Source of the DNA: Mycoplasmatota bacterium
Lineage (GTDB): Bacteria > Bacillota_I > Bacilli_A > Izemoplasmatales > Hujiaoplasmataceae
Assembly (NCBI GenBank): GCA_016342455.1
Contig: JAEIOE010000011.1
Location: forward strand, 1 to 50,257
Reading direction: 5' to 3'
DNA length: 50,257 nt
Part shown: in pieces, positions 39,898-50,257 of the stretch
How the letters are laid out: each line of letters starts with the position of its first letter
Numbering within the stretch: position 1 is the stretch's first letter
Program-made: the position numbers and the translations under genes
The notes under the pieces: generated by a model
Seen by the model: the letters and a program-made list of their open reading frames with translations, nothing else
The model's database searches: none
What the model was told of the DNA's origin: nothing

Positions 39898-40689
39898 CTA
39901 TTCAAGGAAAAATAATTCCGTTGAATAGTCTTGACGTGCTACAACTAATTTATAGGCAGAGATATCCACCCCTTGGTTCATAAATGCTTTGTTATATGCA
40001 TCTATTGCTAATGAAGTAAGATTACATTCTTCTGACAAATGAGCTAAAATAATTATCTTAGTTTTATCGCCAGCTAAATTTAATAAAAGCGTAGCGGAGT
40101 CTTCATTAGATAAATGACCTTCGTCATCTAGGATTCTTCTCTTTAATAACCATGGTCTATCACTTTCTAATAGTAATTCAACTTCATGATTACTTTCAAT
40201 GATATAAGCTTCAGCATTTGCTATCAGATTATATTTTCTTTGAGGAAAATAACCTGTATCTGTTATATATACCAAAGACTTATCATCTTCATAAAAACGA
40301 TAACCAAAAGGTTCAATCGCATCATGATAGACATTAAAAGGTAATACCTGAAATCCGTCAAATTCTAATAATTTTTCCGGAACACAAGTTTTAAACCTTG
40401 TACAATCTATCACATATTTTATATTCTTTTTTAAATTCTTCAGCGATCCTTCACTTAGATAGATTTCAATATCATGATTTTTTGCTAACATAGCTAATTG
40501 ACCAACATGATCACTATGTTCATGAGTTATGAATACTTTAGTTAATCCATCAATTGTTTTATTATGCTCTTCAAGTCTTAATCTAACTTGTTTATAACTA
40601 ATACCACAATCAATCAAGATTTTTTCATTACCAATCTCTAAATAAGTAGAATTACCTCTAGAACCACTCGCTAATACGATAAATTCCAT
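39898..40689 (-). CDS. walJ: WalJ/YycJ-type metallo-beta-lactamase-fold hydrolase
   Basis: 263 aa. It begins MEFIVLASGSRGNSTYLEIG and has the metal-binding THEHSDHVGQL motif, GYRFYEDDKSLVYITDTGYFP and LAHLSEECN near the C terminus, all typical of YycJ/VicX. The family is a DNA exonuclease-like MBL protein linked to WalRK signalling and DNA repair. Here no walRK is nearby; it is the last gene of the fibre operon, 1 nt after a sipW gene. No convincing terminator follows. Confidence 0.9.
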   Translation of the reverse strand: MEFIVLASGSRGNSTYLEIGNEKILIDCGISYKQVRLRLEEHNKTIDGLTKVFITHEHSDHVGQLAMLAKNHDIEIYLSEGSLKNLKKNIKYVIDCTRFKTCVPEKLLEFDGFQVLPFNVYHDAIEPFGYRFYEDDKSLVYITDTGYFPQRKYNLIANAEAYIIESNHEVELLLESDRPWLLKRRILDDEGHLSNEDSATLLLNLAGDKTKIIILAHLSEECNLTSLAIDAYNKAFMNQGVDISAYKLVVARQDYSTELFFLE

Positions 40690-40690
40690 T

Positions 40691-41338
40691 CTATTCTTCC
40701 TTTTCTTTTTGTTCTCTACGTAGTCTCTCTAATTCTATTTGGACTAACTTATCTTTTTCTTCTTCCAAAGCTTTTTCATCTTTAGCTTGTGAAATAATTT
40801 TTATAATATTAAATATTTCCATTCCCCCAATAATAACAAAGACTAGAATGATTACAATAAATACTAAACTTAGTCCTCCGGAATAGATAGCAGAATATAC
40901 TTTACCAATAAAACCTGATTTTCCAGTATACTTACCAATGATTCTATCTGCCGTTATATCAATTTCAAAATCATCTGATATCGGATTGGTAGCTTCATTA
41001 TCACCTTTTGTAGTGTAGTAAGAAACACCTTCATCTACTGTAATAGAAACAATTCTATGGGTTACCGTTTCGTCTGTGCCATTTCCATCTAGATCAGCAT
41101 AGAATGTTATTATATCGCCAACATGAAATTCATTTGTTAATGTATCACTAAAAATAATATCGCCAACCATAATAGTGTCTTCCATTGATGGAGACACAAC
41201 TAAAAATACAGCTCTACCAAATATTGTTGGTGTTTCTCCTTTTTTAACAGAAGTCACCACAGATACTATAAGGATAAAAGCTAGTAGTAGAATTAAATAT
41301 GGAATTATATTTGCAATTTTCTTTAAAGTGCTTTTCAT
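40691..41338 (-). CDS. sipW: SipW-type (ER-type) signal peptidase I, copy 1
   Basis: 215 aa. N-terminal TM (~10-32), catalytic Ser51 in VSPSMEDTI and His94 in VTHRIVSI (His replaces the Lys of ordinary SPase I, the ER-type dyad), a KGDNEATNPISDDF box, a second TM (~153-175) and a charged, coiled C-terminal tail with Lys/Glu repeats. SipW enzymes process TasA/camelysin-type substrates, and two such genes precede it (37 nt). Start ATG; last-but-one gene of the operon. Confidence 0.94.
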   Translation of the reverse strand: MKSTLKKIANIIPYLILLLAFILIVSVVTSVKKGETPTIFGRAVFLVVSPSMEDTIMVGDIIFSDTLTNEFHVGDIITFYADLDGNGTDETVTHRIVSITVDEGVSYYTTKGDNEATNPISDDFEIDITADRIIGKYTGKSGFIGKVYSAIYSGGLSLVFIVIILVFVIIGGMEIFNIIKIISQAKDEKALEEEKDKLVQIELERLRREQKEKEE

Positions 41339-41375
41339 ACTCTCTCCTAAAGAAAATGGAGTCTTTTAGGCTCCA

Positions 41376-41978
41376 TTAAATTTCTGGTTCACCAGTTGAA
41401 AAATCATATCCAACAAGTTCAGACCAAGTTGCATTATCATTTTGTTTGATTTCTATTGTGATAGAAACTGCTACATCTTGTTCGACATAATCAATATTTG
41501 TATTTACTCCGTCGTAGATAATAGAAGAAACTAGTTCTATTAATCCTGAATCCGCCGCAATAGTTGAAGTAGTTCCATTTAAGTACCAATATTCTGTATC
41601 ATACACGAATGTTGAATCAAATACAACTGATATGTGTTCTGTACTTGCGTCTGTATAAATATAATTTTCTTCAAAAACTAGTCCTGCGCCCCCTGGATTT
41701 GTAATTCTAGTATATGTTATTTGAATTCTTAATTGTGATTCTATAGGTGATGTATTGGTTACATCAAACTCTGTATCTACTAATTCTAATCCTGGATAAA
41801 TGATTGTATCATCGGTGATAAAATCGCCATTTTGAAAATATCTTAAGTCACCAACTGAGATTACTCCTGAATCTAGATCAATCAGGTCAGCAAACCAACC
41901 ATAAGTAATTCCCAGAATTACTAAAGAAGATAATATAAGAAATAATGATGTTAATGGTAGTATCAACCTTTTTTTCAT
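41376..41978 (-). CDS. SipW-dependent TasA/camelysin-like surface protein (copy 4)
   Basis: 200 aa. The N-terminal signal segment has a KKR start, a ~20-residue hydrophobic stretch and a GITYGWFAD motif, the variant (xYxWFxD) of the SipW-dependent signal. The mature part starts with a GVISVGDLRYF strand and is beta-rich, ending with a FDVTNTSPIESQLRIQITYTRI stretch characteristic of the camelysin/TasA fold. Small; could be a minor pilin or tip subunit. Twelve nt after the 41991 gene. Confidence 0.78.
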   Translation of the reverse strand: MKKRLILPLTSLFLILSSLVILGITYGWFADLIDLDSGVISVGDLRYFQNGDFITDDTIIYPGLELVDTEFDVTNTSPIESQLRIQITYTRITNPGGAGLVFEENYIYTDASTEHISVVFDSTFVYDTEYWYLNGTTSTIAADSGLIELVSSIIYDGVNTNIDYVEQDVAVSITIEIKQNDNATWSELVGYDFSTGEPEI

Positions 41979-41990
41979 ATCAATATCACC

Positions 41991-42587
41991 TTACCCTACT
42001 GATTGGATATACAAATTAGTAAAATCCAGTCTCAAGTTTTGATAATCGTTACCTATAGTCTCAGGAATTGTAAATGAAAAGTAAAGTTCTGCAGTTCCTA
42101 AAGAGGCAATCGCTACACTATCATGAGTTATCAATTTTGTAGAACCTACTAAGGAAGATAAAGTTTGATCAACGATAGTTACGGAATCAATATTATTAGA
42201 GGTATTCAATAAAATTACATCAGCTAATAATCTTCCCGACGCATAGTTGGATGTATCACCATTAATACTTGTATAGGTTTCGCTCATGCCATAAAGAGAT
42301 ACTTGAGTATAAACCTCAAAATCATTATTATTTGTAATTACCAACTTAAAATACTTAACATCTCCAGGAACTTGATTTTCAAAACTAATTCCAGTTGATT
42401 CGGTATATGTAATATCATCATCTGATTCCCATAAAACAGCTTCTACGGATATATCCTGTTGGTTTACTAGAAAGTCACCCAAATCATTAATGTTAGATAA
42501 AGTAAACCAAGCAAAAGAGGCGATTACAAACAAAAATACAGATCCTATCAATGCAACTAAAGACAAGGACAAGCGTTTTTTTATCAT
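41991..42587 (-). CDS. SipW-dependent TasA/camelysin-like surface protein (copy 3)
   Basis: 198 aa. Signal with KKRLSLSLVALIGSVFLFV then ASFAWFTLSNIND, the standard SipW-type motif (AWF). After cleavage the mature protein is a beta-sandwich of ~165 residues (VEAVLWESDDD, YFKLVITNNNDFEVYTQVSL). Related in N terminus and fold to the other three SipW substrates here. Coupled to the next gene (12-nt gap). Adjacent to the DUF2357 gene. Confidence 0.82.
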   Translation of the reverse strand: MIKKRLSLSLVALIGSVFLFVIASFAWFTLSNINDLGDFLVNQQDISVEAVLWESDDDITYTESTGISFENQVPGDVKYFKLVITNNNDFEVYTQVSLYGMSETYTSINGDTSNYASGRLLADVILLNTSNNIDSVTIVDQTLSSLVGSTKLITHDSVAIASLGTAELYFSFTIPETIGNDYQNLRLDFTNLYIQSVG

Positions 42588-42620
42588 AATATCACCTCTT
42601 TATTTTCTAGTTATTTATTT

Positions 42621-44183
42621 TTAGTAAAACTCTCTTAATTCACGAATTTTCTTTTCTCTTCTTTCTTTCTCTGCGTCATCTAAGATATCTTTCGCTTTTT
42701 GTAGTTTTTTCTTCTTTTCGATTTCTTTGTCTACTTCATTACGTTTTTCTTCCATAAGATCTCTTAGTTTTTCAGCTTGATCTATCTCTTTTTTAAGTTT
42801 AGATTCTTCAATTTGTTTTCTTAACTCTTCTTCATAATTATTTAATGAAAGTTGAGATAAAGCTTTTTGAGTTTGCATATTCGCTATATTATTTTTTTGT
42901 ATTTCATCAATGCTCTTATAAGCCTTGAGGATTTTCTTTTGAATGCTGATTTTATCATTAACATCTTTTTCTTCTTCTGGTCTGAAGTTTTCATTGATGA
43001 AATTGACAAATGCGGCATCTGCTATAGATGATAATCTTTGATAAATCATCTTAACAGCTTCATCTTCTCTAATTCCAGCGTTTAAGAGTGTTTTTAATCT
43101 GCCTTCATTTGCTTTTCTAATTTGATCTAAGAAATATTGATTCATTGTATTATCTTGAAAGATATATTCTCCCGGGTCAATATACTTATCATTAACATAT
43201 TGTTTTAATACTTTCGGTGTTTTTCTTTTGTGGTAATCGAAAGGAGCATCAAATGATAATTCAAAATCCTCTACTTGATTATTTGCAACAGTTGCATATA
43301 TAACCATAAGTGCATTTTCTACTTCGTTTAAATACTTTGGTTCAAATTCAATATCTCTTTCAAAAACATCTACATCATATCCGATGCGGTCAACTTCATC
43401 TAATAAAACCCACATATCATAACAAGCTCTATAATCATAATTTTTTAAAATCTTATTAGTTTTCATGATGGGTGGTCTTACTGGAGGAAATTCACTCAAA
43501 TTTTTCATAAATTTAGACATTTTATAATTCGTAATTAATTGTCTTAACTCTGTCATTCTCTTTAATAATTCAGCGTTTCTTCTTCCAATTTCATCAATAG
43601 CAGACTCTTGATGAACTCTAAAAGTGATGTCAAAGTCAACAGTTGAATCTTCCCACTCTAAAGTTGAGTCTATTTTCAAATAATTAATATATTCTGTTTT
43701 TGATTTTTCAACAATAACATCATATCTTAATTCAATAAACGTATACAATTTATTTACTAAACTGCTTATGAATCTATTTTCATAAGTTCCTAAATCGGTT
43801 TCTGAATAACTAGTAAGCACTTTTGTAGGAATAACATTTCCATGTTTATCAACTTCTTTTATAAATTGTGTATTAGCTGCTAAATGTCTTACGGTATCTG
43901 CATCAATTTTTTTAGCACGTTCCACAGGAACAACTTCTTGATGCTTTTTTAATGCTTCACTTGGATTTCTAGTTAATTTGTCAATTACAGGGATAATTTC
44001 TTCGATAGCGTCCATAAAAGAGTCTTCGAAGACTCTTCTTTCGCGTCTCTCTTTATGGTACAGTTTGGTGTCTGCTCCAGCTAGAACACTAAGAAAAGAC
44101 TTTGCAAATTCATCTTGTCTATTTACACCCTCGAAAGTCGTATTAATTTTTTTGAAATACTTTTTTGCCGAACCATTATCCAT
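42621..44183 (-). CDS. DUF2357 (McrC-related) coiled-coil protein
   Basis: 520 aa. The TYENRF motif (133-138) in ETDLGTYENRFISSLVNKLYTF is the central DUF2357 signature, and PPIMKTNKILKNYDYRACYD (~238-258) corresponds to the following conserved segment. DUF2357 proteins are often next to McrB-like ATPases, as here (13-nt gap to the AAA gene). No PD-(D/E)XK nuclease motif typical of McrC was seen. Residues ~430-520 form a long, highly charged coiled coil rich in KKE/REKK. No signal or TM, so probably cytoplasmic, working with the membrane-anchored AAA protein. Confidence 0.72.
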   Translation of the reverse strand: MDNGSAKKYFKKINTTFEGVNRQDEFAKSFLSVLAGADTKLYHKERRERRVFEDSFMDAIEEIIPVIDKLTRNPSEALKKHQEVVPVERAKKIDADTVRHLAANTQFIKEVDKHGNVIPTKVLTSYSETDLGTYENRFISSLVNKLYTFIELRYDVIVEKSKTEYINYLKIDSTLEWEDSTVDFDITFRVHQESAIDEIGRRNAELLKRMTELRQLITNYKMSKFMKNLSEFPPVRPPIMKTNKILKNYDYRACYDMWVLLDEVDRIGYDVDVFERDIEFEPKYLNEVENALMVIYATVANNQVEDFELSFDAPFDYHKRKTPKVLKQYVNDKYIDPGEYIFQDNTMNQYFLDQIRKANEGRLKTLLNAGIREDEAVKMIYQRLSSIADAAFVNFINENFRPEEEKDVNDKISIQKKILKAYKSIDEIQKNNIANMQTQKALSQLSLNNYEEELRKQIEESKLKKEIDQAEKLRDLMEEKRNEVDKEIEKKKKLQKAKDILDDAEKERREKKIRELREFY

Positions 44184-44196
44184 TTAACATCACCTA

Positions 44197-45870
44197 TTAA
44201 TGACTTTTGAAATCATTTATTACTTTGAGAGAAGCGTCAAATTCATTCTTCCCAAATACTTTTCTAATTTGTACTGTTAATAGGTCTAATTCATTTTGTA
44301 GAAAGGCAAGATTTAAATTTTCAAATTTTCTTAATATTTTATTTGCGAAAATAAAGTCTAACGCTTCTGTATCAGTTCCTCCACACGCTACAAACACAGG
44401 GATAAACTTATGAACTTGACCCATAATTCTATTACCAAAAGCAATTTTGAATTTCTCTTGAATATACTTGTCAATGATTTTGAATTTTTCCAATAAGTCA
44501 TCACTTACAGGATATTTATGAATTGCATCATCAAATAACTCTTGTAAATAACTACTACTTATATGTACTGGTTCTGTATCTGGAGCAGTAAAGCTTTCTG
44601 CCTTACTTTCAAAGCTAAGAGAAATTGCACGGTCATAAACTTTATCAGTAATTGTATAAGTTGAATCATCTTTATTGGATGTACCTACAAACCATAAGTT
44701 TAGTGGTACAGTAATTTTACCGTTAATTACTTTTAAAGGGTCATTTGGTTTAGTATCTGGTACTAAATCAATTTTCCACTCCGTTGGATCTGGCATTTCC
44801 ATGATTGATAAGAATTCAGCGAAGTAATATTCTATTCTCGCTAAGTTCATTTCGTCTAGAACGATGTAATTAACATCTTTACGATATATTGATTCATAAA
44901 GAGATTGTAAGAAGTTTGTTTCATTAAATCTCTTAGTAAATTCATTTAAGTAACCAATTATTTCTGCTCTGTCTCTCCAAGATGGTTGAACAGAGATGAT
45001 TGATGCATTATTACCAAAGAACTTAGCCATAGCGTATGGTAGACTGGTTTTCCCAGTACCTGAGATACCTTCTAAAATGATAACTTTAGAAGCTGCCATA
45101 CCAGCAAAGAAAAATGATATAGTTTTGGCTTTATAAAATAATTTTAATTTTGAACAAGCGAAATTAACAAATCTATCTACTATTTCTGGAAGTTGTAAGT
45201 AATCAGCTTCGTCCATATAGATATGTGTATCTTTACCTTCATACTGTTTGTCAACATTGATTAGTTTTACGAATCTTGAGTGCCCTAAAGGCAATGATGA
45301 ATCCGATGAAGATCCTCCGCCTCCGCCTCCACCATAAGAAGGCCTGTAACCAGCACCGCCAACTCCACCAGCAGCTAGACTTCCAACACCCATAGCTGCA
45401 GTTGCGCCAGCTGCGGTAAGTGCAACGGGTCCAATAGCATCCCCAGTAGATGTATAGTTAATCTCTGTAGTTCCAGTTCTAGCTCCAAGTTGTGAAACTT
45501 TTAATGATAAAATTTGGTTCTTTTCATCAGCTAGTTCCAATACTCTATCATTAAGCATAGCAATTTCTTCGATTAATTCATTCTTTTCAATTTCAATTGC
45601 TCTAAATGATGCAAATCTTCTAAACCATAAATATAATCTTACTAGTATAAATATAATTAATGAAATATTTAATACGAAAGTAAATACTATCATTACCCAA
45701 GATACAATAGTAAAGTCTCCTGAATCTGTTACTAATAAGTCAAAATATGATCTGATATTCTTTACAAATTGTAAGATTCCACCATTCCATATAACATCTC
45801 TAAAGAAAGCAATGATGTCTTGCCATATATATTTATAAAGTTCTACATAAAATCGTGAAAACTCATTCAT
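44197..45870 (-). CDS. Membrane-anchored McrB-like AAA+ ATPase
   Basis: 557 aa. An amphipathic N terminus and a TM helix (~54-83) precede a short coiled coil (~95-125), an Ala/Gly-rich and poly-Gly linker (~140-190), and a AAA+ module of the McrB subgroup: Walker A GISGTGKTS (268-276), Walker B NYIVLDE (334-340) followed by MNLARIEYYFAEFL, sensor-1 GTSNKDDS (396-403) and an Arg in VYDRA (~414). The McrB DNA-binding N domain is replaced by the membrane segment, so it is unlikely to be a plain restriction ATPase. 38 nt after sipW copy 2 and 13 nt before DUF2357. Confidence 0.8.
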   Translation of the reverse strand: MNEFSRFYVELYKYIWQDIIAFFRDVIWNGGILQFVKNIRSYFDLLVTDSGDFTIVSWVMIVFTFVLNISLIIFILVRLYLWFRRFASFRAIEIEKNELIEEIAMLNDRVLELADEKNQILSLKVSQLGARTGTTEINYTSTGDAIGPVALTAAGATAAMGVGSLAAGGVGGAGYRPSYGGGGGGGSSSDSSLPLGHSRFVKLINVDKQYEGKDTHIYMDEADYLQLPEIVDRFVNFACSKLKLFYKAKTISFFFAGMAASKVIILEGISGTGKTSLPYAMAKFFGNNASIISVQPSWRDRAEIIGYLNEFTKRFNETNFLQSLYESIYRKDVNYIVLDEMNLARIEYYFAEFLSIMEMPDPTEWKIDLVPDTKPNDPLKVINGKITVPLNLWFVGTSNKDDSTYTITDKVYDRAISLSFESKAESFTAPDTEPVHISSSYLQELFDDAIHKYPVSDDLLEKFKIIDKYIQEKFKIAFGNRIMGQVHKFIPVFVACGGTDTEALDFIFANKILRKFENLNLAFLQNELDLLTVQIRKVFGKNEFDASLKVINDFKSH

Positions 45871-45908
45871 ATACTTTTCTCCTTTAGATCAAATAGTTTA
45901 ATAATTTA

Positions 45909-46607
45909 TTACTTTTTTTCTTCTAATGCTTTTAATTTTGCTTCTTCTTCAAGTTGCTTCTTAGCCATAGCAATAGCTTCTTCTTGAAGTTTTACTCTAC
46001 TTTCTAATGTTTGTTGAGACTTATAATCCGCCATTACATTAACAAATTTGTATACTTCGTATACTAAGAATGCAAAACAAGGTAAAACAATAAATATAAA
46101 GAATCCAGTTCCTGATTTAAGAAACCCTACAATTCCATCAATTATTCCGCCAAGATTTTTAGTTACTTTCCCGTTCCAAACACCTACAATGTGATCTTCA
46201 TAGGTCAAACCTGTATCTTGAGATGTGTTGTTATCCCCTTGAGTACCAAAATATAATTTTTCATTAATCCCCGGGCTAATTTCTACAACCCTATGTGAAT
46301 TATATACAAGTTCACGAGTTCCATCTCCATCTACATCAATTAAAATTTGATAAGTAATAACATCACCAATTTCAATGTCATTAGCATCAAATTCGGTATC
46401 AACATATATTAAATCTCCCGCTTCGAATGTTGGTGCCATAGAATCTGTTTGCACAGTTAAAGCAGTCTGACCAAATATACTAGTTACACTATCATCAGTT
46501 GACGTAATAGCAACAACTGAATATATAGCTACAATTGCCAAAACTATCCAAAATATAAGGTTTGCTACTTTGAACTTCTTCTTGTTTCTCTTTTTATTTT
46601 CATTCAT
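45909..46607 (-). CDS. sipW: SipW-type (ER-type) signal peptidase I, copy 2
   Basis: 232 aa. A Lys/Arg-rich start, TM (~14-34), catalytic Ser56 in QTDSMAPTFEAGD and His105 in NSHRVVEI, then GTQGDNNTSQDTG, a second TM (~160-180) and a coiled C-terminal tail (~200-232). The Ser/His dyad is that of ER-type SipW peptidases. First gene after the IS, with its own promoter (46702-46730) and RBS GGAGAG. Together with copy 1 it flanks the AAA/DUF2357/pilin genes. Confidence 0.93.
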   Translation of the reverse strand: MNENKKRNKKKFKVANLIFWIVLAIVAIYSVVAITSTDDSVTSIFGQTALTVQTDSMAPTFEAGDLIYVDTEFDANDIEIGDVITYQILIDVDGDGTRELVYNSHRVVEISPGINEKLYFGTQGDNNTSQDTGLTYEDHIVGVWNGKVTKNLGGIIDGIVGFLKSGTGFFIFIVLPCFAFLVYEVYKFVNVMADYKSQQTLESRVKLQEEAIAMAKKQLEEEAKLKALEEKK

Positions 46608-46701
46608 ATATCTCTCTCCAATTCATAAATAACATAACTACTAAATTATATTATATAATATATAGGACTTTTTTTCATTATCTTTTTATAAAAAATACCG
46701 A

Positions 46702-46730
46702 TTTATAGATGTTTTTAAGAGTTTTATCAA
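46702..46730 (-). promoter_or_regulatory. Promoter of the sipW-AAA-DUF2357 operon
   Basis: TTGATA (46730-46725), a 17-nt spacer and TATAAA (46707-46702). It lies between the left IS end and the sipW copy 2 gene, so the downstream operon is expressed even with the IS inserted. Confidence 0.7.
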
Positions 46731-46769
46731 GAAATATCTTCTCTAAGTTTTTTAAATTTATAGCTGTGT

Positions 46770-47855
46770 TCAAGCAAAGTACTGATTTAGTGTAGGATAC
46801 GGTTTGTAAATATCAACTGGAAACGGTTTTTTGGATATTGTATTCACGATGACAGAACTTTCATTTGAAACGATATATCGAAACGAATGTTTTTGTCTGT
46901 ATTCAGGTTCGATTTGATATTTTAAGTATTTTTCGAATCGAAACCAGGAAAGATACTTTTGTAAATGTCTAGTGGACACGCCTTTGAATTTTTGAAACCA
47001 TTGTTTCATCTCTCCATGAATGCCATTGAGTGTTCCTAGGTTATAAGTGTCAAGAGTATGAAATCCTGAAGGAATTTGAATGAGGGAACACTTATATTTT
47101 TTTGAGACTTCTTGATATGCGGACTTACTATCCGTAACCATCGTTCCATTCGGCTTAATTCGGTTTACTAAAGCCTTATCAAAATCTTGAATCAGGGGGT
47201 TCCCTTGTCCAATCAACTTTGTAATCATTTGATCAGACTCATCCATCGCAACCAGCACACAAACATGTTCATTGCTGATTCCGCGCTTGATGGCTGGTGT
47301 TCCTCTTTTCTTGGCTTTCCGAGGCATCAATGGGTTTTTACTGTTCTTTTTGATTCCTTTGAAGTTCAGTAAAAAATAGGTTTCATCCATTTGGATTTCT
47401 CCGGACAATCTCTCGTTTGTTTGATACTGAGTCATTACTTCCATAGCCTTATGTCGCCAATGAAAGGCTGTTGTTACAGAAATTCCGACTTTTGAAGAGA
47501 TCGTTCGCAAGGATTGACCAGACATCATTTCTTCAATAAAACGATGCCATACTTGATAATTTTTCTTCGTGGATTGAACAATTGATTTTGTCGTATCGGA
47601 AAAACTTTTATGACAGTCTTTACAAACGTATTTTTGTCTCATTGTTTTTGTTTTTCCGTTTCTTACAAATGCCAATGATCCGCAATGCTGACAGTGACTT
47701 GCCTGATGAGTTCTTTCTCGATAAAGAATCCGATGCATCGCATTTGTCGCTTTGATTTCAGATGCGGACTTTTTGGATACATAATCCTTAAGTTCACCCA
47801 TCTCATCAGCACAGATTGTGTTTACTAGTTCGTAGATCATTTCCAGATTGTTCAT
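46770..47855 (-). CDS. IS1595-family (ISXO2-like) transposase
   Basis: 361 aa. A zinc ribbon (Cys55, Cys58, Cys78, Cys81: CQHCGS ... CKDCHKSF) and an HTH (SLRTISSKVGISVTTAFHWRHKA, ~115-137) precede the DDE-type nuclease: Asp157 (QMDETYF), Asp242 (VTDSKSAY) and a third acidic or Asn site in LNGIHGEMKQWF (277-287). This order is that of IS1595/ISXO2 transposases. The ORF is uninterrupted, so the element may be active. Its stop lies a few bases inside the left end; RBS AGGAG upstream of ATG. Confidence 0.93.
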   Translation of the reverse strand: MNNLEMIYELVNTICADEMGELKDYVSKKSASEIKATNAMHRILYRERTHQASHCQHCGSLAFVRNGKTKTMRQKYVCKDCHKSFSDTTKSIVQSTKKNYQVWHRFIEEMMSGQSLRTISSKVGISVTTAFHWRHKAMEVMTQYQTNERLSGEIQMDETYFLLNFKGIKKNSKNPLMPRKAKKRGTPAIKRGISNEHVCVLVAMDESDQMITKLIGQGNPLIQDFDKALVNRIKPNGTMVTDSKSAYQEVSKKYKCSLIQIPSGFHTLDTYNLGTLNGIHGEMKQWFQKFKGVSTRHLQKYLSWFRFEKYLKYQIEPEYRQKHSFRYIVSNESSVIVNTISKKPFPVDIYKPYPTLNQYFA

Positions 47856-47881
47856 CTTACTCAGCTCCTAGACATAAAAAT

Positions 47882-47998
47882 GTCCTTAAGCAACCAGCTC
47901 ATTAGTTGTTTAAGTCGCCAAACCAAGACAATCTTCATGAGCCGGTTGATTAAGGACACTTAATCAATCAAACATTCTATTTTCTGTCTTGATTTGGC
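47882..47998. repeat. Nested, mutually competing inverted repeats inside the IS
   Basis: Four stems share sequence. A: 47882-47902 with 47937-47957 (19 of 21). B: 47917-47930 with 47985-47998 (13 of 14). C: 47885-47894 with 47905-47914 (9 of 10). D: 47946-47954 with 47959-47967 (9 of 9, loop GACA). A excludes C and D; A and B together would be a pseudoknot. This is the leader side of the transposase gene. Confidence 0.8.
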
Positions 47999-48111
47999 AA
48001 CTATATTGTATCAAATTATTTCCATTCTATCAATTGTTTTATGAATCTCATCAGTACTTTCATTGAACACAGCTAAATTTATTAAAAACTTAGAAAACAT
48101 ACCCTTAAGGT

Positions 48112-48143
48112 AACATAACTTAGGGGTTAGCCTAAGTTATGTT
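48112..48143. terminator. Strong hairpin behind the major SipW-substrate gene
   Basis: AACATAACTTAGG-GGTTAG-CCTAAGTTATGTT, 13 bp, no mismatch. A T run follows only on the plus-strand side; on the minus (coding) side it is followed by ACCTTAAGG. So for the pilin transcript it is more likely a 3'-end stabiliser or weak terminator than a full stop. Confidence 0.6.
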
Positions 48144-48179
48144 TTTAATAAAATTATTAATATCTTTTTTAATTATAAA

Positions 48180-49058
48180 TTAAGATAATGTAAATTCTAA
48201 ATCAATTGTAAATGTAGCTCCCATGATGTCGTTTGTAGTATCTGCATCCCAGCCTTCAGCCCAAATATATACTGTTAATAATTCAGGAATATTAGCTGTT
48301 GCTAAAGTAGCAATAACTGTAGAAGTAGTTGCTGCTGTTATTGAAGCAGTACCTGTCATACTATTTAATCCGCCAGTAGTTGAAAAACCAGGAACTGAAG
48401 CTGTTGCCCAAGTGAATCCAGTATCTAAATCATCACCAAATACAGCTTGAGTTGAACCATCATAAGTACCAATCCAAATTGCTTGTTCCCAAATTTCTCC
48501 AGCTTCACTATCAGTGATGTCATAAGACATAACGATATCAGTGTTAGTTCCAGCAGGTTTTAGTAACCAAAATTTCAATTCAATGTATCCACCACCTGCA
48601 GTGTTTGAAGCTGCTGCTGCAGTACCTAATTCTCTACCAGCAAGAGATGTATCTGGTGTTAAGAAGTTTCCTGTTGGCTTTCTTAATGCAGTAATATCAC
48701 ATGATGAATAATCAGTGTCATAAACTCCACCTGTTTGATCTTCACCAGTAAGACAAGTGACAGGGCTTAATAGCCATGTTGCTAATTCTGTATCGTATTG
48801 AGTACTATCTGTGACTGTAAGAACATTTGAAAAATCATCAAGTGTCCATCCATAAGTACTATATGCTAATCCAGAATCAGTTTCCCCATCCCAAACACGC
48901 ATTAATAACGCCTCTGAAGATTCTACATTAACATCAAATGAGTTAACAGTAACAACATTCGATACTGTAAACCATGCGTAAGTTGAACCTATTGTCGCAA
49001 CTAATGCAAATACAAGCACGATTGCTGACATAATAACTTTTGTTTTTAAACTTTTCAT
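48180..49058 (-). CDS. SipW-dependent TasA-like fibre subunit (major candidate)
   Basis: 292 aa, the size of TasA (~260) plus some. Signal: KTKVIMSAIVLVFALVATIG then STYAWFTVSNVVTVNSFDVNVE, the classic SipW-dependent motif. The mature part is beta-rich, Thr/Ser/Ala/Gly-rich and acidic, with one Cys pair candidate (LTGEDQ.. CLTG, SSCDI), and ends VYIWAEGWDADTTNDIMGATFTIDLEFTLS, typical of TasA/camelysin C-terminal strands. RBS AAAGGAG. It follows the 49112 gene by 53 nt that contain a run of 21 A on the mRNA strand. A strong hairpin follows. Role as the main fibre protein is inferred. Confidence 0.85.
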   Translation of the reverse strand: MKSLKTKVIMSAIVLVFALVATIGSTYAWFTVSNVVTVNSFDVNVESSEALLMRVWDGETDSGLAYSTYGWTLDDFSNVLTVTDSTQYDTELATWLLSPVTCLTGEDQTGGVYDTDYSSCDITALRKPTGNFLTPDTSLAGRELGTAAAASNTAGGGYIELKFWLLKPAGTNTDIVMSYDITDSEAGEIWEQAIWIGTYDGSTQAVFGDDLDTGFTWATASVPGFSTTGGLNSMTGTASITAATTSTVIATLATANIPELLTVYIWAEGWDADTTNDIMGATFTIDLEFTLS

Positions 49059-49074
49059 TTTATTTCTCCTTTTA

Positions 49075-49095
49075 TTTTTTTTTTTTTTTTTTTTT
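49075..49095 (-). repeat. Homopolymer A21 tract in the mRNA before the fibre subunit
   Basis: Twenty-one consecutive T on the plus strand, i.e. A21 on the transcribed sequence, about 12 bp upstream of the RBS of the 48180 gene. By far the longest mononucleotide run I saw in the window. Confidence 0.97.
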
Positions 49096-49111
49096 GTTAA
49101 TAATCATCTTG

Positions 49112-49873
49112 TTAATACTCATAGACATCCGTCACTGAGAACTGCATGTCTAGTTTCACTCCACCACCCATGATTTCCATAGTGTGGTCAGCATCTTCAC
49201 CTTCATACCAAATAATCACTGTTACTTTAATAACATCACCTGGTGCAAAAGCTGTGAATTCCTGATTCATGGCTTCGGTCTGACTGTAAAACGCTTCTGT
49301 CAAAGGCTCAAGTTGCCCTGGTGCATCGCCTTTTAGAGACTGCACTTTAGCATAAGTTGTTCCAATACCATCAATGATAACTCTTACTCTTACTGCCTGA
49401 ACAGCATCTCCAGTTGTTGAAATAATGTTCATTTTAGCGCTCATGTCAATGGTTGCATCTCCAGCGTTTTCTACATAAAACGTATACGCTATATAAGACA
49501 TACCATTGTTTTGACCATCTAATAGAGATATTTCCTCATCAGTAGGAATACAAACTGAACTTCCTAATTCGAAGTCCGTATATTCAGTTCCACAATAACC
49601 AGTCATACCTGTTGGATCATCTACTATTTCTGAAATTAATCTTGCTGTGTAATCCTTAGCAATATGATCTTCATACATTGTGATTCCAGCGTTCTGTGCC
49701 GGCCTATCAATGGTGAATGTGAAGTTACCTACAACTTCTCCATAATAGGATATTGCGAATATTAGAAACGTTAGTATCGCGCTTATCATAATACCAAATC
49801 GACTCGCCTTAGCAACTCTCGCGTGCCTTGATGCAATTATGACGCGCTCAGCTAACTTGATTTTTTGGCTCAT
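49112..49873 (-). CDS. SipW-dependent/camelysin-like membrane or surface protein (copy 1)
   Basis: 253 aa. A ~25-residue basic N terminus (KLAERVIIASRHARVAKASR) leads to a TM (~28-45) followed by YYGEVVGNFTFTID, a degenerate SipW-type site. The mature part is beta-rich with VENAGDATIDMSAKMNII and a C-terminal VIIWYEGEDADHTMEIMGGGVKLDMQFSVTDVYEY, matching the C-terminal end of the 48180 protein (IWAEGWDAD...F.ID..F). First gene behind the c-di-GMP riboswitch. The long cytosolic start could keep it anchored, as a base or anchor subunit. RBS is weak (GGGGGT, 12 nt upstream). Confidence 0.72.
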   Translation of the reverse strand: MSQKIKLAERVIIASRHARVAKASRFGIMISAILTFLIFAISYYGEVVGNFTFTIDRPAQNAGITMYEDHIAKDYTARLISEIVDDPTGMTGYCGTEYTDFELGSSVCIPTDEEISLLDGQNNGMSYIAYTFYVENAGDATIDMSAKMNIISTTGDAVQAVRVRVIIDGIGTTYAKVQSLKGDAPGQLEPLTEAFYSQTEAMNQEFTAFAPGDVIKVTVIIWYEGEDADHTMEIMGGGVKLDMQFSVTDVYEY

Positions 49874-50019: not shown

Positions 50020-50054
50020 AAAAAAATGCCCTCATCTTTTAAAAGATAACGGCA
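50020..50054 (-). terminator. Riboswitch expression platform: intrinsic terminator
   Basis: TGCCGTTATCTTTT (50054-50041) pairs with AAAAGATGAGGGCA (50040-50027), 13 of 14 with one G-T pair, followed by seven T. The 5' arm includes the TGCCG that ends the aptamer, so terminator and folded aptamer compete. Confidence 0.82.
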
Positions 50055-50121
50055 ACTGGCTACCATCCGAAGAAGGCCCTATAGCTTTGCGTCACTAGCT
50101 TTCACTAGTTTTGCTATTTAC
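50050..50121 (-). ncRNA. Class I cyclic di-GMP riboswitch (GEMM-I)
   Basis: On the minus strand: AATAGCAAAACTAG, then a 6-bp stem with a GAAA tetraloop (ACTAGT-GAAA-GCTAGT), GACGCAAAGCTATAGGGCC, TTCTTCGG, ATGGTAGCCAGTTGCCG. These are the hallmark elements of GEMM-I: GNRA tetraloop in the first hairpin, the GACGCAAAGC joining segment, the tetraloop receptor in the second hairpin and the final GCCAG(G/T)T.CCG. It lies between a perfect promoter and a terminator, upstream of the fibre genes. Because the terminator reuses aptamer bases, binding of c-di-GMP probably turns the genes on. Confidence 0.93.
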
Positions 50122-50127
50122 AGACGT

Positions 50128-50156
50128 AGTATATAATAGTCAAGCCTATTTGTCAA
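50128..50156 (-). promoter_or_regulatory. Promoter of the riboswitch-controlled fibre operon
   Basis: Consensus TTGACA (50156-50151), 17-nt spacer, TATACT (50133-50128). Start expected near 50121, at the beginning of the aptamer. The inverted IS copy begins 29 bp upstream of the -35 box. Confidence 0.9.
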
Positions 50157-50185
50157 GTGCATTACTTATTTTTTTTATTTTTTTA

Positions 50186-50257
50186 GCTGTGTTCAAGCAA
50201 AGTACTGATGAGATTCATAAAACAATTGATAGAATAGGAATAATTTGATACAATAGA
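50186..50257 (+). mobile_element. End of a second IS copy in inverted orientation (cut by window edge)
   Basis: The last 72 nt of the window begin AGCTGTGTTCAAGC and match, in reverse complement, the right end of the IS at 48074-48002 with only about four to five differences (TG/GC near position 12, TGGAA/TAGGA further in). The transposase of this copy would lie beyond the window on the plus strand. Its target duplication cannot be seen. Confidence 0.88.

Follow-up and report, generated by a model that had tools for sequence, protein, structure and literature searches.

CoCoPALM was named by Bell et al. (eLife 2024) from gene neighborhood alone, in one paragraph on McrB GTPases of the NxD type with a fused FtsB-like transmembrane (TM) helix and coiled coil (PMC11090510). 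The NxD motif of these GTPases is usually followed by D or E. Their partners are coiled-coil McrC homologs, with signal peptidases as neighbors, and the systems were left uncharacterized and deferred to a later paper (PMC11090510). TasA, cyclic di-GMP (c-di-GMP), and riboswitches are not mentioned in that text (PMC11090510). In the literature searched, CoCoPALM otherwise appeared only in the preprint of the same work and the later paper was not found; searches for SipW together with Izemoplasma, Ruminococcus, or c-di-GMP also returned no description of such a system. Here we analyzed an operon in a 50,257-nucleotide stretch of DNA (the window; contig JAEIOE010000011.1 of assembly GCA_016342455.1) from a Mycoplasmatota bacterium of the Hujiaoplasmataceae. 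It encodes, in this order, the putative fiber proteins P1 and P2, the signal peptidase SipW1, a TM-anchored McrB-like AAA+ NTPase, a DUF2357 protein, P3, P4, and a second signal peptidase, SipW2. This is probably a c-di-GMP-induced surface-fiber operon of the CoCoPALM kind, in which the McrB/McrC-like pair would serve fiber biogenesis at the membrane.

Every CoCoPALM feature that could be tested was found in the operon, which by its predicted proteins is a likely member of the CoCoPALM kind. The original prediction, made from the window's sequence, had held that no described system contains these parts together, and CoCoPALM contradicts this. The AAA protein has one clear TM helix (residues ~58–80), a coiled-coil stretch (93–126), and an AAA+ domain, as in the CoCoPALM fusion; its topology must be C-in. 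The nearest solved relative of the AAA+ domain is McrB (E 1.2e-4), hhalign aligned it with E. coli McrB (probability 95.5%), and the PADLOC profile PDC-M26A matches the AAA part (1.2e-40). An N[KNR]DDS motif, corresponding to the NxD of CoCoPALM, was invariant in 29 of 29 alignment rows, and the NTP-binding and hydrolysis residues were also invariant. NxDD can be read as NxxD as well, and thus the motif alone cannot separate the McrB branches. The DUF2357 protein matches PF09823 (40.6 bits; cut-off 23.3) and has a long K/E-rich C-terminal coiled coil, similar to the McrC partner of CoCoPALM, and two TIGR02228 signal peptidases are the neighbors. The membrane-anchored McrB-like AAA+ protein and the DUF2357 coiled-coil protein had both been predicted, and both were confirmed. 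McrC was not among the PDB matches of the DUF2357 profile, and hhalign did not connect the protein to McrC of E. coli either; therefore, the link to McrC comes from PF09823 and the gene pairing. The published account of CoCoPALM contains no substrates, regulation, or mechanism, and neither SipW-type pilin-like partners with their fold nor a riboswitch. The fiber proteins and the riboswitch are additions to it.

McrBC, a type IV restriction system, shares with the window the AAA+ core with Walker A/B and N..D motifs and the DUF2357 activator domain. In McrBC, the finger domain of McrC activates McrB and plugs the pore of the McrB-type ring (PMC7680126). Judged by the domain searches, a TM helix and coiled coils replace the DNA-binding and nuclease parts here: no nuclease domain, including the PD-(D/E)xK domain of McrC, was found in the DUF2357 protein or its neighbors. 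The CoCoNuTs and PADLOC PDC-M26 share with the window an McrB of the NxD-type branch and coiled coils, and the PDC-M26A profile matches the window AAA. However, CoCoNuTs that are missing the McrC nuclease carry a HEPN or other nuclease, and neither was found in the operon. Nucleic-acid restriction by the pair is unlikely. The MBL-fold gene next to SipW2 was weighed as a possible nuclease partner and set aside, since it is a constant neighbor in the window's family only and is absent beside the operon in other families.

Within the window's family, 31 of 33 genomes have the DUF2357 protein, several being cut by contig ends, and the order P1–P2–SipW–AAA–DUF2357–P3–P4–SipW recurs, followed by the MBL gene and PFOR. 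The AAA is also found in Acholeplasma granularum and other Acholeplasmataceae, Izemoplasmatales, Ruminococcus albus, R. flavefaciens, and many uncultured Clostridia. There are 58 named loci longer than 12 kb; SipW is present in 57 and DUF2357 in 51, compared with only five SipW-like genes in the whole 2.43 Mb of the window's own genome. Ruminococcus has the shortest version, P1–SipW–AAA–DUF2357. The gene cluster is genuine and strongly conserved, and its arrangement, recurring across families, orders, and phyla, is not due to chance.

In a survey covering 392 genomes of the phylum, with 40 neighborhoods fetched, there are four kinds of TM-anchored AAA relatives (classes A to D), plus a few without a TM helix. 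Class A is the operon type of the window. In class C, the AAA is about 600 amino acids (588–683), with SipW directly upstream and a divergent DUF2357 (L201–L210, L221, L224, L225); the loci that were read have two short proteins of the SipW type ahead of SipW and, downstream, an ABC transporter and a beta-helix-like protein. In class B, two closely similar TM-AAA genes flank one DUF2357 gene and there is no SipW (L191–L200, L222, L223, L227). In the two loci examined, these genes are followed by those of very large surface proteins, of which some carry YDG, MBG, or AgI/II domains. Class B has the look of another envelope system that is as yet undescribed. Class D has an AAA of ~900 amino acids and a DUF2357 protein, with no SipW in the fetched stretch except in one case. 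The window's own genome has a class D locus as well (L070, contig C35, 7732–12013), with a 908-amino-acid TM-AAA carrying GTANRDES and no SipW in the fetched stretch; its DUF2357 protein has C-terminal CxxC pairs, and surface and lipoprotein genes adjoin. Mapped onto an AAA-domain tree, the presence of SipW required 5 changes, compared with 31.6 in shuffles, and no shuffle out of 500 reached this value. The tree was built quickly and some of its branches are very long, and thus we claim only the clustering. SipW linkage is a trait of particular clades and not of all TM-AAA/DUF2357 pairs. One could argue from classes B and D, which lack SipW, that a stand-alone AAA/DUF2357 module lies beside the other genes by chance, and the original prediction had named a pair mostly found without SipW or TasA genes as its refutation. 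Pairs without SipW do occur in those sister clades, but in class A the presence of SipW in 57 of 58 loci, the clustering on the tree, and the conserved gene order refute a chance neighborhood and leave it hardly any probability. Because the synteny is deep and SipW is bound to clades of the AAA tree, the proposed functional link among SipW, the fiber-like proteins, the TM-AAA, and DUF2357 is supported.

SipW1 and SipW2 each score 71.9 bits against TIGR02228, the endoplasmic reticulum (ER)/archaeal-type signal peptidase model (cut-off 51.85), so that two ER-type peptidases are present as predicted; both match the strict Bacillus SipW model below its cut-off. The SipW proteins of the operon have charged cytosolic tails (median 46 and 37 amino acids), and a comparison with SipWs outside the operon, where a single protein was cleanly readable, is merely suggestive. 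The signal helices of P2, P3, and P4 end in a SipW-type A/G-W-F, while P1 ends differently, in a conserved G-x-F that comes after the helix. P1 is the most widely conserved pilin-like partner and is kept as far as Ruminococcus. In P2, A-W at the signal end and E-G at the C-terminus are invariant, and an operon has up to three P2-type paralogs. No usable Pfam or NCBIfam family model and no TasA, CalY, camelysin, or known-pilin sequence matched P1–P4; TIGR04088 was weakly matched by one of 45 P2 proteins (E 0.012). Four proteins with SipW-type signals or camelysin-like ends had been proposed. The signals hold for P2, P3, and P4, P1 differs, and the camelysin likeness found no family match.

The AlphaFold2 model of the window's own P1 shows a beta-sandwich after the signal helix (pLDDT 92), and that of P2 has a pLDDT of 78. 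Independently, both models ranked the same PDB entry first, 7ueg_A (E 4.4e-4 and probability 0.99 for P1; E 6.5e-3 and probability 0.57 for P2). This is the bundling pilin AbpA of Pyrobaculum calidifontis, which forms a TasA-type donor-strand fiber. FimG and a Sulfolobus filament were also among the fold matches of P2. The archaeal bundling pili differ in their host domain and superpose only weakly at the global level, and we know of no McrBC-like partner for them. The tapA-sipW-tasA operon of Bacillus shares a SipW-type peptidase, SipW-type signals, and, judged by the models, beta-sandwich secreted proteins with the window. It differs in having no McrB/DUF2357 pair, one SipW, and control by SinR (PMC9674648), and TasA has no detectable sequence similarity to P1–P4. 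The models support, but do not prove, that P1–P4 are subunits of a donor-strand-type fiber. Alternatively, P1–P4 might be monomeric surface adhesins or anchored proteins that are cut by SipW. The lack of sequence matches to TasA, CalY, or known pilins, the weakness of the fold matches, and the giant surface repeat proteins beside the related class B pairs agree with this. Nevertheless, we regard monomeric adhesins as unlikely, given that a donor-strand pilus subunit is the best fold match of both models, that P2-type paralogs are multiplied in the operon, and that two peptidases with multiple small subunits resemble tapA-sipW-tasA.

A promoter-like site, a c-di-GMP-I riboswitch, and an intrinsic terminator at 50020–50156, absent from the original prediction, are newly recognized here. 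The RF01051 aptamer is full length and scores 62.1 bits with the Rfam covariance model (gathering score 35). The promoter-like site has 11 of 12 consensus positions, ranks first among 57 matches in that region, and ends 3 nucleotides upstream of the aptamer. The terminator hairpin (−14.2 kcal/mol; z −2.7) takes the last 7 nucleotides of the aptamer into its 5′ arm, and an overlap of the same kind occurs in 51 of 69 riboswitches beside related operons. Since the 5′ arm overlaps the aptamer, the element is a predicted ON switch in which the ligand should prevent termination, so that c-di-GMP is predicted to turn the operon on. Of the 63 distinct P1 genes whose upstream sequence was long enough, 39 are preceded by the riboswitch, or 39 of 49 outside the Ruminococcus clade; 14 of the 24 P1 genes that lack it are in this clade. 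At four loci, tandem c-di-GMP-I riboswitches precede P1 (L085 5146–5368, L112 6184–6422, L060 16506–16660, and L098 3665–3894), and for most of them a terminator that overlaps the aptamer is predicted.

The window's own genome encodes 25 GGDEF domains and five c-di-GMP-I riboswitches, all of which precede SipW-type secreted proteins. Apart from the one in the window, each (C106:10530, C21:13793, C21:16108, and C49:4673) is located before an open reading frame with a SipW-type N-terminus, for example SSYAYFTN or GFAYWDNN, and one of these contigs also has another SipW-like gene. Thus, in this organism the c-di-GMP-I regulon appears to coincide with the SipW-dependent exoproteome.

These results bear on envelope defense, in which the TM-AAA/DUF2357 pair would be an immune device of the CoCoNuT type, detecting attacks on the envelope with the fibers as its sensor or bait. 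The PADLOC candidate match of the AAA would fit such a device, as would a superfamily that includes restriction systems and CoCoNuTs. However, the operon has no nuclease, and it is near-universal in its family at a fixed chromosomal site beside PFOR, unlike mobile defense genes. Its pilin-like and SipW genes are constant partners, and it is under predicted c-di-GMP control. Sensing of envelope attack, which had been offered as an alternative, is therefore disfavored, and we give it very little credence. c-di-GMP is the usual signal for surface life. The riboswitch links CoCoPALM to this signal and thus points to fiber display rather than immunity.

For a c-di-GMP-induced fiber operon, the following steps are proposed. 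At high c-di-GMP, the aptamer would fold, the overlapping terminator would be blocked, and the operon would be transcribed. P1–P4 would be exported with their long N-terminal signal helices, be cut by the two SipW peptidases, and polymerize outside as beta-sandwich fibers, probably by donor-strand exchange like TasA and the archaeal bundling pili. The McrB-like NTPase, anchored by its TM helix, would lie on the cytosolic face and be activated by its DUF2357 partner as McrC activates McrB. The coiled coils of the pair could dock on the charged SipW tails. The AAA might then gate or power the release and assembly of membrane-held subunits; this is its most likely role, and we hold it with less confidence than the preceding steps. 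A tentative extension, for which the odds are somewhat against, is that a McrB-type ring, anchored in the membrane and with DUF2357 as its stalk, couples NTP hydrolysis to SipW processing and donor-strand pilin release. Such fiber building would differ from the sortase, type IV, chaperone-usher, and unpowered TasA modes.

The strongest rival for the role of the pair is quality control: the AAA/DUF2357 proteins could act as a chaperone or unfoldase and pull stuck precursors or cleaved signal helices out of the membrane, with the fibers forming without them. Extraction of membrane proteins is a recurrent task of AAA+ proteins, and the AAA here is membrane-anchored and adjoins SipW. TasA assembles by donor-strand exchange, and no ATPase is mentioned for the B. 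subtilis fibers (PMC9674648), which also agrees with quality control. However, there is no protease partner gene, and a McrB-type pore plugged by the McrC finger is ill-suited to threading (PMC7680126), which leaves quality control a rather doubtful explanation.

Several findings count against a fiber operon served by the McrB/McrC-like pair. As TasA fibers are described without such an ATPase, the job of the AAA is not evident. The sister pairs of classes B and D occur without SipW, and five operons have no DUF2357 (L092, L093, L101, L107, and L108). In Ruminococcus, no Rfam riboswitch of any kind was found before P1 at the loci searched. A search of solved structures with the P1 sequence profile found nothing, and no sequence profile ties P1 to TasA. 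The fold matches of P1 and P2 have low TM-scores (0.20–0.34), and thus a donor-strand-type fiber is supported but unproven. The five operons without DUF2357, from Acholeplasmataceae and related metagenome-assembled genomes, contain P1, P2, SipW, AAA, and P3 and have no second SipW.

The module occurs widely in both the wall-less Mollicutes and the Clostridia. Since cultured carriers exist (A. granularum and R. albus), it can be tested. If the fiber reading is true, a restriction-type NTPase has been recruited for building surface fibers.

The features of the window are listed in Table 1. All genes of the operon are on the minus strand with gaps of 1–53 nucleotides, apart from one insertion sequence (IS), and the gene positions, strand, and spacing given in the original prediction were correct.

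Table 1. Predicted features of the operon and its surroundings in the window
Feature	Position	Strand	Basis
Promoter-like site, TTGACA-17-TATACT	50128..50156	−	Consensus scan only
c-di-GMP-I (GEMM-I) riboswitch aptamer	50048..50125	−	Rfam RF01051
Riboswitch intrinsic terminator, UGCC..GGCA hairpin and U run	50020..50054	−	Fold
P1, secreted beta-sandwich (TasA/AbpA-like) putative fiber protein, 253 amino acids	49112..49873	−	AlphaFold2 and fold match
P2, SipW-signal pilin-like, 292 amino acids, STYAWFT	48180..49058	−	Signal end, AlphaFold2
IS1595-family insertion, outside the system	46735..48101 (transposase 46770–47855)	−	NF033547
SipW1, ER-type signal peptidase, charged cytosolic tail of 41 amino acids	45909..46607	−	TIGR02228
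TM, coiled coil, and McrB-like AAA+ NTPase, 557 amino acids	44197..45870	−	McrB matches, PADLOC PDC-M26A
DUF2357 (McrC N-terminal domain) protein, C-terminal coiled coil, no nuclease, 520 amino acids	42621..44183	−	PF09823
P3, SipW-signal pilin-like, 198 amino acids, ASFAWFT	41991..42587	−	Position conserved
P4, SipW-signal pilin-like, 200 amino acids, ITYGWFA	41376..41978	−	Position conserved
SipW2, second ER-type signal peptidase, charged cytosolic tail of 30 amino acids	40691..41338	−	TIGR02228
MBL-fold hydrolase, neighbor, non-core	39898..40689	−	PF12706

The IS1595-family element (NF033547, 144.8 bits) has 52-nucleotide terminal inverted repeats and occupies the spacer between P2 and SipW1, which is short in relatives and has no IS at that site. 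The end of the window (50185–50257) is the terminal sequence of a second IS1595-type copy, inverted relative to the first, and the contig probably ends here because of this repeat. The riboswitch, P1, and P2 are thus flanked by the two copies.

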